Assembly: GCA_030613025.1 (NCBI GenBank)
Contig: JAUWMT010000022.1
Location: forward strand, 1 to 42,465
Origin: Candidatus Cloacimonadota bacterium
Lineage (GTDB): Bacteria > Cloacimonadota > Cloacimonadia > JGIOTU-2
Length of the DNA: 42,465 nt
Reading direction: 5' to 3'
Shown here: one piece after another, positions 24,814 to 30,107 of the stretch
How positions within the stretch are numbered: position 1 is the first letter of the stretch
Layout: the number at the start of each line of letters is the position of its first letter
The notes under the pieces: generated by a model
What the model was told of the DNA's origin: nothing
Seen by the model: only the letters and a program-made list of their open reading frames with translations
Databases searched by the model: none
Translations under genes and position numbers: made by a program

Positions 24814-26991
24814 ATGTCTTCATCCATTCTTAATACGCTGAACGAGAAACAGCGGGAAGCTGTTCTTGCGATCGAAGGTCCGGTGCTTATTCTTGCTGGT
24901 GCAGGTAGTGGAAAAACACGCTGCATAGTACACAGAATTGCCTATCTCATTTCAGAAAAAAAAGTCAGTCCTCACAATATTTTGGCAGTCACTTTTACAA
25001 ATAAAGCTGCAAATGAAATGAAAGAACGTCTGCAGAATCAGTTCAACATAAATATCCGCTACTTATGGGTTGGTACTTTTCACTCAATGTGTGCTCGAAT
25101 ATTAAGAACCGAATCACAGTACTTGCCTGTTACACAGAATTACACAATTTACGATGGCGTTGATCAGCAGCGTATTATGAAAAATGTTCTCAAAGAAATC
25201 AACCTTGCAGAAACGAACTTCCCGATTAAAAAGATACTTCACATCATATCCCAGCAAAAGAATAACCTTGTCGAATATGATGAATTTTCTATTGATGACA
25301 CCTATTATGGAAAATACCTTCAGCAAATTTATGAAGCGTATCAAAGATATCTTATTAGAAATAATGGTGTCGATTTTGACGACCTTCTTCTATATACTGC
25401 CAAACTATTTGAGAATCATAAAGACTTGCTGGAACGTTATCAAGATCGATTCAAATATGTGATGATCGACGAGTATCAGGACACAAATTACGCACAGTAC
25501 CGCTTTGCATATTTGCTTGCGAAAAAGCACAAAAATATCTGTGTGGTCGGTGATGATGATCAATCAATATATAGCTGGCGTGGTGCAAATATCAGAAACA
25601 TTCTTTCTTTTGAAGATGACTATGAGAAACCAAAGATCATTCGTATGACACAGAATTACCGCTCACCGAAACGTGTGCTCTCTGCTGCGAATGAGCTTAT
25701 TTCACGTAATGAATCGCGCCACAAAAAGGAGCTCTGGACAGATAAGGAAGTCGGAAAGGATATTTCATTATATAATACTCAAAATGAGCGCCATGAAGCT
25801 ATAATGGTCTCACAAAAAATAAATGAACTAAATAACACACATAATGTTTCTCTAAAAAATATTGCAATATTTTATCGAACAAATGCTCAGTCCCGTGTAT
25901 TGGAAACTCAGTTCATCAAAGATCACATAGACTATCGGATCGTGGGAGGAGTGAATTTCTTCCAGCGAAAGGAGATCAAAGATATTATCGCATATCTCAG
26001 ACTCATTGCAAATCCAAAGGATAATGAGAGTTTCTTAAGAATAGTGAATTTTCCAAAGCGCGGAATTGGCAAAACGACAATTTCATACCTCTTAGATTTT
26101 GCTGTTGAAAAAAATAGCTCTCTCTTTGATGCAGTTGAAACAGTTGATTCTTGCGAAGCAATATCTTCTTCGGGCAAAGAGCACCTGAAACTCTTCAAAA
26201 AAACAATAGACGGCTTTATTGATATCTCCCAGCAGCTACCGATTAATAAATTAGTCAAACAGGTTATTGATAATACCGAAATATTAGATTTTTATAAACA
26301 TGATGACTCGATAGAAGGCGAAAGCAAAGCAGAGAATATTCGGGAATTTGTTGCCTCGACTGATGAATTTGCTGAGAATTTTATTACTATTCATGATAAA
26401 AAACCATCCCTGCAGGAATATATGCAGAATCTCTCGCTTGTTTCCGACATTGATTATGCAGACACCGACAGAGACGTAGTTTCTCTTATGACAATGCATA
26501 ATGCAAAAGGGCTTGAATTCCCCTATGTGTTCATTGTAGGAGCAGAAGATGGCTTGATCCCGCATAGAAATTCCATGGAATCCCCTGGTGATATTGAAGA
26601 AGAGCGGCGGCTTTTTTATGTTGCGATGACACGGACGATCAAAGAGCTGTTCATATCTTATGCTCAATCACGCAGATATTATGATTCCACAATGTCATCT
26701 TTCCCCTCTCGCTTTCTGAACGACATCAACAAGAACCATTTCCAAATGTTTGATATGACGAATTTCCAGACGAATAATGATTTCACTCCCAAAAGATATA
26801 CTAGCAAAAAGACGTTTGATCTGGGTACACAGGATGATACTTTTAAGGTAGGACAAAGAGTCGAGCATACGAGCTTCGGCAGAGGTCGGATTCTCTCGAT
26901 CAAAAAAGATGGTGAGTTAATTAAGTTGACAATATCTTTCGATTCCGGAGAATTAAAAAAAATAATTTCGGATTATATTAAAGTATTATGA
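24814..26991 (+). CDS. pcrA: ATP-dependent 3'-5' DNA helicase PcrA/UvrD
   Basis: This superfamily 1A helicase acts in nucleotide excision repair, mismatch repair and removal of RecA or stalled forks. Walker A is AGAGSGKT (28-35). Other motifs are FTNKAANEM, GTFHSMCARILR, DEYQD (219-223), GDDDQSIYSWRGA (246-258), QNYRS (280-284) and, near the end, TMHNAKGLEF with VAMTR. The length of 725 residues and a C-terminal Tudor-like domain (GQRVEHTSFGRGRIL) place it with PcrA/UvrD rather than Rep. It starts 1 bp after a lipoprotein gene and overlaps the porV-like gene by 4 bp. A repair helicase between envelope genes is an unusual operon partner. Confidence 0.92.
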   Translation: MSSSILNTLNEKQREAVLAIEGPVLILAGAGSGKTRCIVHRIAYLISEKKVSPHNILAVTFTNKAANEMKERLQNQFNINIRYLWVGTFHSMCARILRTESQYLPVTQNYTIYDGVDQQRIMKNVLKEINLAETNFPIKKILHIISQQKNNLVEYDEFSIDDTYYGKYLQQIYEAYQRYLIRNNGVDFDDLLLYTAKLFENHKDLLERYQDRFKYVMIDEYQDTNYAQYRFAYLLAKKHKNICVVGDDDQSIYSWRGANIRNILSFEDDYEKPKIIRMTQNYRSPKRVLSAANELISRNESRHKKELWTDKEVGKDISLYNTQNERHEAIMVSQKINELNNTHNVSLKNIAIFYRTNAQSRVLETQFIKDHIDYRIVGGVNFFQRKEIKDIIAYLRLIANPKDNESFLRIVNFPKRGIGKTTISYLLDFAVEKNSSLFDAVETVDSCEAISSSGKEHLKLFKKTIDGFIDISQQLPINKLVKQVIDNTEILDFYKHDDSIEGESKAENIREFVASTDEFAENFITIHDKKPSLQEYMQNLSLVSDIDYADTDRDVVSLMTMHNAKGLEFPYVFIVGAEDGLIPHRNSMESPGDIEEERRLFYVAMTRTIKELFISYAQSRRYYDSTMSSFPSRFLNDINKNHFQMFDMTNFQTNNDFTPKRYTSKKTFDLGTQDDTFKVGQRVEHTSFGRGRILSIKKDGELIKLTISFDSGELKKIISDYIKVL

Positions 26992-27950
26992 AAAAAATAA
27001 TTATTCTTCTAATAAGTTGCTTTCTTTTAAGCAGCTTATTGCATGCTGATAAATATGCAGGAGAATTTTTGAATATCGGAGTTGGCGTCAAAGCTCGAGC
27101 ACTTGGAAATGCTTTTGTCGCTCTCGCTGACGATCCTACGGCAGTCTATTGGAACCCTGCAGGAATTTATTATTGTAACAATATTTCTTTCAATATTATG
27201 CATTCTGAGGAATATGCCGGGAATCTAAAATATGATGCGATCAGCGCAATCTATCCCCTCGATGATGCAAAGAAATTTGGTTTTCTTATTACTCGCACAG
27301 GCATTTCTGGAATTCCCCTGACAAAGCTTGAAGATCCCAATGATACTGTTTCAGTTCACAATCCACCTTATGCATATAAATATGTAAGTGATGCTGATTA
27401 TACCGGTTATCTATCATTCAGCTCAAAATTATTTACCGATATCTCCTTTGGTATCACCACAAAACTGATATACAGAACAATTGGAGATATAAAAGCATCG
27501 GGAATTGGACTGGACGCGGGATTTCTTTATAAGATCAATCCAAGTATTCAGGTTGGCTTGAATATTCGTGATGCGATCGGAACCTCGATCTGGTGGAAGA
27601 ACGGTGAAACAGAAACAGTAACACCGAATATTTTGGCAGGTGCAAGTGCGAAATTTGTATTCCCAATAATCAATGTACCTTCACGTTTATTATGTCAAAC
27701 CGATATTTATTTTGAAAACCGTGACCAAGCTGCTCAACTGTCTGTTGGAAAAGCGAGTTTTGACTTTCATGCCGGTATGCTTTTTAACTTTGCTCCCTTC
27801 CTTTCAGTTGCCTGTGGAATTGAAAGAGAGAATCTCACCGCAGGTGCCTTTATTTCCTATAAGAACTATACTCTTCAGTATGCTTTTGAGAATAATCCCG
27901 ACCTGAATAATATCCACAGAATTTCTCTTGGAGTAGAATTCATTAATTAA
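26988..27950 (+). CDS. PorV/PorQ-family outer membrane protein
   Basis: The 320-residue protein has a signal peptide (ending LHADK). Next comes a highly typical segment: GVGVKARALGNAFVALADD, then AVYWNPAGI. This N-terminal signature is shared by PorV/LptO and UPF0164 barrels of the FadL fold. The rest is alternating beta strands. PorV is the outer-membrane shuttle that carries substrates of the type IX secretion system to their attachment site. A protease with a type IX sorting domain is encoded at 36976-38727, consistent with such a system. Whether this copy is PorV, PorQ or another paralogue is open. Confidence 0.82.
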   Translation: MKKIIILLISCFLLSSLLHADKYAGEFLNIGVGVKARALGNAFVALADDPTAVYWNPAGIYYCNNISFNIMHSEEYAGNLKYDAISAIYPLDDAKKFGFLITRTGISGIPLTKLEDPNDTVSVHNPPYAYKYVSDADYTGYLSFSSKLFTDISFGITTKLIYRTIGDIKASGIGLDAGFLYKINPSIQVGLNIRDAIGTSIWWKNGETETVTPNILAGASAKFVFPIINVPSRLLCQTDIYFENRDQAAQLSVGKASFDFHAGMLFNFAPFLSVACGIERENLTAGAFISYKNYTLQYAFENNPDLNNIHRISLGVEFIN

Positions 27951-28100: not shown

Positions 28101-29060
28101 ATGAAAAAAATTGGATTAATACTTATTGGTTTACTTCTATTCAGTTCTTTTTCTTATGCATCAGTTGCTGTCATTGAAAAGATAATTCCAAATTCAAACA
28201 CTTTCAGCTTCTATTACTCATCAAAACGTATTGATAAAGGGGTAGGCTCAGAAAGATTCTGGCATCTCAAATCAACTCGTTTGGGATGGATAGGTGATAA
28301 TTATGATGTGGATTTAGATCTTGCCCCTCTTGTGGCTGGTAATCCCATTTCTATAAAACAAGCTTGGATTAAATTCACCCCATTCAAATTTATGAACATC
28401 TCACTAGGAAAAATTACTTATCCTTTCTGTAATGTATCGAGTAAAACCACAAGCAATATCACCAATTTCCAACCCACATTCTTCGGGGCAGACTGGATGG
28501 TAAAATTCAACGGAAAATTTGATAAACTCCGCTGGTATGCATATTGGGCAGATGGTGGAATTAATGAAGGCATTAGTGCATATGATACACCCTCAACTAT
28601 TGGATTTAGAGGAAAATACTCATTAGCAGGACTCGATGTAGGTGCTTCTATCAGAATCAACGATTGGGATGACGATGATAGAAAATATGATTGGGGCGCA
28701 GACCTTCTATATGAATTAGGAAATATTGCTAAATTTAATTGCCAGGTTTTTAATCTACCTGATGATGATGATAATTCCGATTTAAACTTCTTTTTGATTG
28801 CTTCTTATGAAAAAGGATTTATTCTTCCATTTGCCAAGAAAACTATTCCATATTTGGGTTACTTCTCAAGAAACGGGATAGATGGTAAGGGAGCAAAAGA
28901 ATCTAATATTGTAATTGGTTTAAATATGAAACCGGTTAATAATGCCTTTATAAAGTTGGAATATAATATCGACTCAGCAATTGGTGAGAAAGGAATATTG
29001 AGCACAGATAATCAGAATATTTCAAATGCCCTTTCACTTGAAATCGGATATAGTTTTTAG
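28101..29060 (+). CDS. Outer-membrane porin-like protein, first of a tandem pair
   Basis: The 319-residue protein has a signal peptide (ending FSYAS), is rich in alternating hydrophobic and aromatic strands and ends in Phe (LEIGYSF), all usual for an outer-membrane beta barrel. A strong AAAGGAGA lies before the ATG. It is a paralogue of the next gene: both share YYSSKRI, GVGSERFWHLK, the central ADGGINEGISAYD block and the end DNQNISNALSLE. Acidic patches (DDDDNSD) lie in likely surface loops. I recognise no named family. The upstream hairpin and strong ribosome binding site suggest high expression. Confidence 0.7.
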   Translation: MKKIGLILIGLLLFSSFSYASVAVIEKIIPNSNTFSFYYSSKRIDKGVGSERFWHLKSTRLGWIGDNYDVDLDLAPLVAGNPISIKQAWIKFTPFKFMNISLGKITYPFCNVSSKTTSNITNFQPTFFGADWMVKFNGKFDKLRWYAYWADGGINEGISAYDTPSTIGFRGKYSLAGLDVGASIRINDWDDDDRKYDWGADLLYELGNIAKFNCQVFNLPDDDDNSDLNFFLIASYEKGFILPFAKKTIPYLGYFSRNGIDGKGAKESNIVIGLNMKPVNNAFIKLEYNIDSAIGEKGILSTDNQNISNALSLEIGYSF

Positions 29061-29097
29061 ATGCTAACCTTTATTCAATAAGTTTAAGGAGAAACTA

Positions 29098-30057
29098 ATG
29101 AAAAAAATATTATTAATAACTCTCTTTCTCATGCTCGTAAGCTCATTCCTCGTTGCAAATGAGATCAGTTTCTATTATTCTTCAAAACGAATCGAAAAGG
29201 GTGTTGGTTCAGAAAGATTCTGGCATCTTAAAGACTTTTATTTTGAATGGGAAGGTAAAAATTTTATAACCTCGTTGGACCTTTCTGGGCTTATGGAGAA
29301 CAATCCTAAACTCAGTATCAATGAAGCTTGGATAAAATTCAATTTGTTTACTTCATATTACTCTTATTTCCAAAAATATCAATGGTTCACAGTTGACATG
29401 AAAGTTGGAGATATGGCGTATCCATTCGGGAATGTTTCGAGTAGATCCTCGAAAAATATCAGTATTTTTCACCCACAAACCTTTGATTCTAATTGGATGG
29501 TTAATTTTACCGGTGAACTCTGTTCAAAGTACACTTTCAATGCCTATTGGGCGGATGGTGGAATTAATGAAGGCATTAGCGCATACGATTCACCCTCAAC
29601 TATTGGATTTAGAGGAAAATACTCATTGGCAGGACTTGATGCCGGTGCTTCTTTCAGAATCCGCGATTGGAATGACGATGATAGGTTATATGATTTTGGC
29701 ATAGATATAATTTATTCTATCAAAGATATAGTAAAATTAGATTTTCAAGCCTATAATCTTGATGATGGAGATAATAATACTGATGATATTGATTTCTGGT
29801 TTATTGTAAAACATGTTCAAGGTTTCCAAATCCCTATTATACAAACAATCAGGCCTTATTTTGGTTTTTTCACAAAGCCTGTAAAAAACAGGCATGAGTA
29901 TAATATTATATATGGTATTAATATTATGCCAACAAAAAATACATTTGTAAAATTAGAATACAATTATGACTCAGAAGTTGATGAAAAAGGAATATTGAGT
30001 ATAGATAATCAGAACATTTCAAATGCTTTAAGCCTTGAAGTCGTATTCATGTTTTAA
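29098..30057 (+). CDS. Outer-membrane porin-like protein, second of a tandem pair
   Basis: This 319-residue paralogue of the preceding gene also has a signal peptide (ending LVANE), a ribosome binding site AAGGAGAA, barrel-like strands and a terminal Phe. Similarity is uneven: the first third and the loops differ, while the 108-bp block at 29545-29652 is about 93% identical to 28542-28649. The gene follows after 37 bp and ends in a strong terminator, so the pair is likely a two-gene transcript. The two may be surface-variable versions of one porin; no substrate can be named. Confidence 0.7.
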   Translation: MKKILLITLFLMLVSSFLVANEISFYYSSKRIEKGVGSERFWHLKDFYFEWEGKNFITSLDLSGLMENNPKLSINEAWIKFNLFTSYYSYFQKYQWFTVDMKVGDMAYPFGNVSSRSSKNISIFHPQTFDSNWMVNFTGELCSKYTFNAYWADGGINEGISAYDSPSTIGFRGKYSLAGLDAGASFRIRDWNDDDRLYDFGIDIIYSIKDIVKLDFQAYNLDDGDNNTDDIDFWFIVKHVQGFQIPIIQTIRPYFGFFTKPVKNRHEYNIIYGINIMPTKNTFVKLEYNYDSEVDEKGILSIDNQNISNALSLEVVFMF

Positions 30058-30082
30058 TAAAAAACCAATATATGTTTTTTTA

Positions 30083-30107
30083 CCCCGCCTTTGAGCGGGG
30101 TTTTTTT
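30083..30107 (+). terminator. Strong intrinsic terminator after the paired outer-membrane genes
   Basis: CCCCGC (30083-30088) pairs with GCGGGG (30095-30100) around CTTTGA and is followed by seven T. It lies 25 bp after the stop at 30057 and before the butyrate kinase gene, so it separates two transcription units. Confidence 0.92.

Follow-up and report, generated by a model that had tools for sequence, protein, structure and literature searches.

Evidence for recurrent two-way segmental gene conversion between tandem porin-like genes of a Cloacimonadota bacterium

Introduction

Outer-membrane paralogues that copy pieces of each other are a known bacterial route to reshuffled surface proteins. 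Here we describe a pair of porin-like genes, A and B, in a 42,465-bp stretch of DNA of a Cloacimonadota bacterium (GenBank assembly GCA_030613025.1, contig JAUWMT010000022.1; contig C68 in our set), the whole of which we call the window. The two genes are tandem, linked paralogues on the same strand, and have very probably exchanged short segments repeatedly.

28101..29060, plus strand: porin-like outer-membrane protein A, 319 amino acids, first of the tandem pair (open reading frame)
29098..30057, plus strand: porin-like outer-membrane protein B, 319 amino acids, starting 37 bp past A (open reading frame)

In Brucella, segmental conversion between the porin genes omp2a and omp2b is mostly one-way but also occurs in reverse, and varies by species (PMC7050475). 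Like A and B, these are two linked porin paralogues in which surface-loop segments are affected, the loop being a predicted one in our case. The Brucella genes point in opposite directions, are separated by about 830 bp and share 82-100% DNA identity (PMC7050475), whereas A and B are tandem, lie 37 bp apart and have 56% protein identity (over A residues 32-319). A second likeness is to Helicobacter pylori homA/homB (with babA/babB cited in the same paper), outer-membrane paralogues in which one part diverges while another evolves in concert within a strain; these differ in being linked to adherence, about 90% identical and carried by a host-associated bacterium (PMC2795765). The phenomenon of conversion is itself known, and the present case differs by taxon, by tandem layout and by the greater divergence of the pair. 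Among open-licence full texts, we found none that paired Cloacimonadota with gene conversion or porin, and some that paired Cloacimonetes with outer membrane and porin.

Results

A nearly identical block in two diverged genes

The original prediction, made from the DNA letters, was that a 108-bp block differs at only eight bases, without an indel, between otherwise diverged paralogues. This was exact at the following positions.

28542..28649, plus strand: block in A, residues 148-183, with the A-type haplotype; 8 of 108 bases differ from B
29545..29652, plus strand: block in B; 8 of 108 bases differ from A; placed among A genes by the block tree (support 100/99)

The block consists of 36 whole codons and encodes YWADGGINEGISAYD[T/S]PSTIGFRGKYSLAGLD[V/A]GAS. 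The remainder of the two genes proved far more diverged, as had also been claimed, with base differences of 24-46% in 36-codon windows that do not overlap the block. When the aligned codons were shuffled 20,000 times, no 36-codon window had eight or fewer differences (the lowest had 11). The longest exact runs between A and B, of 37 and 26 bases, both fall within the block, and 5 of 33 bases differ in the 11 codons just past it.

Windowed synonymous divergence had been proposed as the test between conversion and selection, and its outcome supports conversion. By the Nei-Gojobori count, the differences in the block split into six synonymous and two non-synonymous; the proportion of differing synonymous sites (pS) was 0.23 and that of non-synonymous sites (pN) 0.02, compared with 0.65 and 0.30 outside. 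The block is thus a low-synonymous tract between strongly diverged flanks. The lowest window pS was at or below the observed 0.17 in 66 of the 20,000 codon shuffles. Codons for the same amino acid (Met and Trp excluded) differed in 5 of 33 cases in the block versus 55 of 130 outside (Fisher p = 0.004). No third copy of the block was found in the genome (2.83 Mb, 98 contigs, 98% complete), which holds two matches in total.

Discordant trees and mosaics among close relatives

At least one match to the gene family was present in 14 of the 17 family genomes (own included), the other three being 59-64% complete; ten genomes had two matches, nine of them on the same contig. Close A-B pairs occur in four genomes, namely G000 (that of the window), G001, G005 and G006, and a close A orthologue truncated at a contig end occurs in G007. 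G002 and G003 belong to the same genus by placement and have more distant pairs. Pair comparisons omitted G008, whose two genes lie on two contig ends, and each family tree omits one or other G008 gene; out-of-family matches in G025, G026, G032 and G033 were kept out of the trees. In the protein tree of the left part, one copy each from G008, G010 and G013 joined the A genes (97/91), and the second copies from G010 and G013 joined the B genes (99/98). Because A and B genes group with separate copies of those genera, the duplication predates the split from them.

Across the left part of the alignment (columns 0-155), the five A genes and four B genes formed two groups (support 100/100). The block gave a different tree, in which window B joined the A genes of G000, G005, G006 and G007 while G001 A joined the other three B genes (100/99); forcing the A genes into one group cost 27 log units (approximately unbiased (AU) test, p = 1.2e-4). 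In the right part, it was G005 B and G001 B that grouped with A genes (AU p = 2e-9). The ancestry of the tract is discordant with that of its flanks, although single-sequence versions of the test were weaker.

Letter-by-letter comparison placed the limits of the exchanged segment in window B.

29539..29640, plus strand: A-type tract in B, widest reading (nine-gene letter-by-letter alignment, codon list and class painting)

Letters diagnostic of the A type extend from 29564 to 29627, with B-type letters at 29536-29538 and from 29641. Class painting showed window B switching from B to A for the first part of the block, becoming undecided after that and returning to B. G001 A passed from A to B and then to undecided or A, G005 B and G001 B both passed from B to A and stayed mostly A to the end, and G006 A carried B-type letters near the right end of the block. 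Related genomes therefore carry differing tracts, which appear to run in both directions, taking the class found in the other genomes as the guide to each direction. Because the switch points differ among the four genomes, at least three events with different borders would be required across them. For the right half the reverse direction may apply, with the B type of G000 and G006 as the import, although this type groups with G009, G012 and G015 (89/87), as expected of an older B type.

We regard recurrent two-way segmental gene conversion between A and B as the very probable explanation. A and B would be an old tandem porin-like pair in which homologous recombination between the copies, within a cell or with a relative's incoming DNA, repeatedly copies short segments. 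In the window genome, an A-type tract of about 64-102 bp would have replaced the corresponding part of B, a part that probably codes for a strand end, the predicted surface loop after it and the strand that follows, with a putative effect on a surface loop. The putative mechanism is RecA-type recombination; RecA is present in the genome, and also in 14 of 14 control genomes. The earlier claim that conversion keeps the block uniform stood in its first half, on low pS, discordant trees and varied mosaics, and was less exact in its second, as two haplotypes exist and have been swapped between the genes. A search of related genomes for further copies, also proposed, returned pairs with different mosaics.

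The block compared with selective constraint

Conversion is favoured over selection because the block is low in pS as well as pN. Under purifying selection on the protein, synonymous sites remain free to change, and another part of the same genes shows that pattern.

28206..28274, plus strand: N-terminal stretch as internal contrast, protein alike and synonymous sites diverged (windowed pS and pN)

Between A and B, windows starting at columns 20-30 had pS 0.79-0.89 and pN 0.08-0.14, and the window from column 30 (around residues 36-58) had pS 0.79 and pN 0.08; mean protein identity over residues 36-58 was 0.89. Synonymous sites in this stretch are close to saturation. The alternative in the original prediction, that purifying selection on the protein keeps the block alike as a functional core such as a pore constriction or partner site, agrees with the low pN of the block and with the 4 of 13 invariant and 2 of 19 nearly invariant columns that it holds. 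These columns come from a 23-sequence alignment that includes the out-of-family L016 and L017 and lacks G007, G008, L018, L019, L029 and L030. A functional core is nevertheless highly improbable, because it would not make the synonymous sites alike too, and it leaves the G001 A haplotype unexplained. Between the orthologues window B and G006 B, pS was 0.38 within the block and 0.15 elsewhere, the opposite of constraint.

More distant members gave the same answer. Between the copies of five complete but distant tandem pairs (G002, G003, G009, G010 and G013), DNA identity was 43-54% in the block versus 51-58% over the whole gene, the block being below the whole gene in four and slightly above it in G003. 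Among 13 distant members, mean protein identity in the block was 0.41, and 55% of 36-residue windows scored lower; in such members the block is conserved to a degree that is average for this protein. In the G010 pair (L009, L024), the copies are more alike elsewhere than in the block, with identity of 0.67-0.80 over columns 260-320, a hint of independent conversion of another segment in another genus.

Constraint at the DNA or RNA level (codon usage, structure or a low mutation rate) could in principle hold synonymous sites alike, and a whole-gene codon bias may act here. Outside the block, the A orthologues had pS of 0.22, 0.09 and 0.16 (window versus G006, G001 and G005), below the 0.47, 0.31 and 0.22 of the helicase gene upstream in the same comparisons; this may be a sign of exchange between species, and codon bias, if the porin is highly expressed, could account for some of it. 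Such constraint is contradicted by the A-B pS of 0.65 outside the block, and we judge it exceedingly improbable.

Points against conversion, and the donor of the tract

Several observations weigh against recurrent conversion between A and B. The tree tests become weaker when sequences are omitted singly, with p = 0.037 for the block of G001 A and p = 0.033 for the right half of G005 B. In the corresponding single-sequence tests, window B stayed on the A side of a long branch (100/99) and the right half of G001 B likewise (100/100), the exact place of each being left open. Two of these four tests are uninformative, since in an unrooted tree a sequence basal on the A side can equally be taken together with B as a single side. 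In synonymous sites, window B compared with G005 B and G001 B had pS of 0.26 and 0.30 in the block against 0.37 and 0.35 outside; the block shows no excess here because the outside includes their replaced C-terminal (right) halves. The tract in window B differs from the window's own A at 7 of 99 bases (columns 160-192), and at 7 of 99 likewise from each of G006 A and G007 A. Finally, the named relatives are metagenome-assembled genomes.

The last point bears on whether the mosaic is an assembly chimera of the two paralogues, as does a run of 234 identical bases shared by A and B in G005, which could be a collapse. A chimera is quite improbable. The longest exact runs in the window are of 37 and 26 bases with differences between them, and different mosaics occur in four separate assemblies (G000, G001, G005 and G006). 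On the evidence weighed, a functional core, DNA-level constraint and an assembly chimera were all set aside.

With segmental conversion retained, the question is where the tract came from. Over the same columns, 4 of 99 bases separate window B from G005 A; because the tract is nearer G005 A than the window's own A, the donor need not be the neighbour gene, and so few sites do not fix it. The tract may have been imported from another species' porin by allelic or ectopic exchange, a variant compatible with conversion that we consider possible, if on balance doubtful. The G001 A block likewise nearly equals G005 B, with one difference (none synonymous, one non-synonymous), compared with 12 (seven synonymous, five non-synonymous) to its own B. 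A ComEC-family competence protein is encoded in the genome, although ComEC is widespread (10 of 14 control genomes) and the informative sites are few. Over 29739-30029, window B is only 1-3% different from G006 B (97-99% identical), compared with 7-32% per window in the flanking genes of the same two genomes; because this segment is far more alike than the flanking genes, it suggests a recent allele exchange between species.

A same-genome donor was supported for G005 and not for the window or G001. The right halves of G005 A and B group together (99/99), which argues against import there and makes G005 the clearest case of within-genome conversion, unless its assembly has collapsed. The 234-base run (L033) lies near the 3' ends of the two genes and could reflect a recent conversion or a collapse. 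For G001, the tree did not group the right halves of its own A and B, and such a grouping was not rejected either (p = 0.28).

Protein identity and predicted structure

Both A and B have an apparent signal peptide at the start and a phenylalanine at the end, by direct inspection. A matched no Pfam family, and B matched Porin_4 (14.6 bits, cut-off 27) and OMP_b-brl (14.4 bits, cut-off 28.7) below threshold; neither protein reached a curated porin-family cut-off. Among the 23 aligned members, Porin_4 matched eight (best expectation value (E) 1.1e-5) and OMP_b-brl ten (best E 2.3e-4), counts for which cut-offs are not shown. A profile search of the PDB returned Porin P at E 0.036 and an unrelated reductase at E 0.58. 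Weak NCBIfam matches were to the LbtU siderophore porin (4 of 23 members, best E 0.016), a TonB-dependent receptor family (1 of 23, E 0.0022), a Phr N-terminal model (4 of 23, best E 0.15) and an amino-acid hydroxylase model (1 of 23, E 0.2).

A structure predicted from eight sequences had a mean predicted local distance difference test score (pLDDT) of 42.5. It contained 15 strands of at least six residues, and the order of a 16-stranded porin fits if a strand near residue 100 is assumed; this strand 5 was not predicted, and residues 1-140 have pLDDT below 50. Foldseek with this low-confidence model gave OmpU as the best match (E 5.9e-7), with template-modelling scores of 0.36-0.53 among the best 50 matches, and OmpU, OmpC and OmpF as the best fold matches. 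The proteins would thus resemble the 16-stranded general porins in fold and strand order, but unlike those porins A has no Pfam family and B only sub-cut-off matches, and the model is of low confidence. Two loops of A matter for the block.

28554..28592, plus strand: predicted surface loop L4 of A, residues 152-164 (model secondary structure; pLDDT below 50 at residues 146-164)
28413..28496, plus strand: candidate constriction loop L3 of A, residues 105-132 (from the long gap before the strand at 133-140)

With L4 so numbered from porin topology, the model is suggestive of a block that runs from the last part of strand 7 through L4, strand 8 and a short turn into strand 9. The predicted L4 region holds most of the amino-acid difference between the haplotypes. 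The constriction loop L3 likely lies upstream, outside the block, and on this weak model too the proposed pore constriction finds no place there.

The surrounding locus

The pair lies between a gene that we take to encode a UvrD/PcrA-like helicase, upstream, and what is presumably a butyrate-kinase-like gene, downstream. Gene order around the pair is conserved in L031-L033.

26988-27950: outer-membrane-like gene before the porins (sub-cut-off Pfam matches to DUF5723 and to the FadL type)
30082..30107, plus strand: likely intrinsic terminator after B (terminator scan and sequence)

Two terminator-like sites were found in the scan, compared with 0.9 (standard deviation (sd) 0.9) in shuffled sequences, the second lying inside gene B. 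Because the scan showed no terminator between A and B, the two may form one operon. Promoter matches (17, against 12.9 with sd 3.8 in shuffles) were not clearly in excess. Within the outer-membrane-like gene, G001 is 24-27% different from G000, G005 and G006 over the 150 bases 27214-27363, more than in the windows on both sides; the G001 stretch is perhaps an imported segment.

Discussion

Close named relatives of this genome are Cloacimonadota, among them Candidatus Celaenobacter antarcticus, a bacterium described from an Antarctic lake's anoxic zone (PMC8542988). The pair adds a very probable case of segmental gene conversion between porin-like genes from Cloacimonadota, a little-studied group. 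Single-gene trees of these porin-like proteins mix histories and call for caution, and the pair offers an opportunity to test, with metagenomes, whether surface loops are exchanged between species. A bolder and rather unlikely extension is that the pair is a recombination hotspot that shuffles surface-loop alleles between the genes and among Celaenobacter-like species, for example under phage pressure. If that were true, it would mean combinatorial porin surfaces in an uncultured anaerobe for which the literature we found gives no host link.
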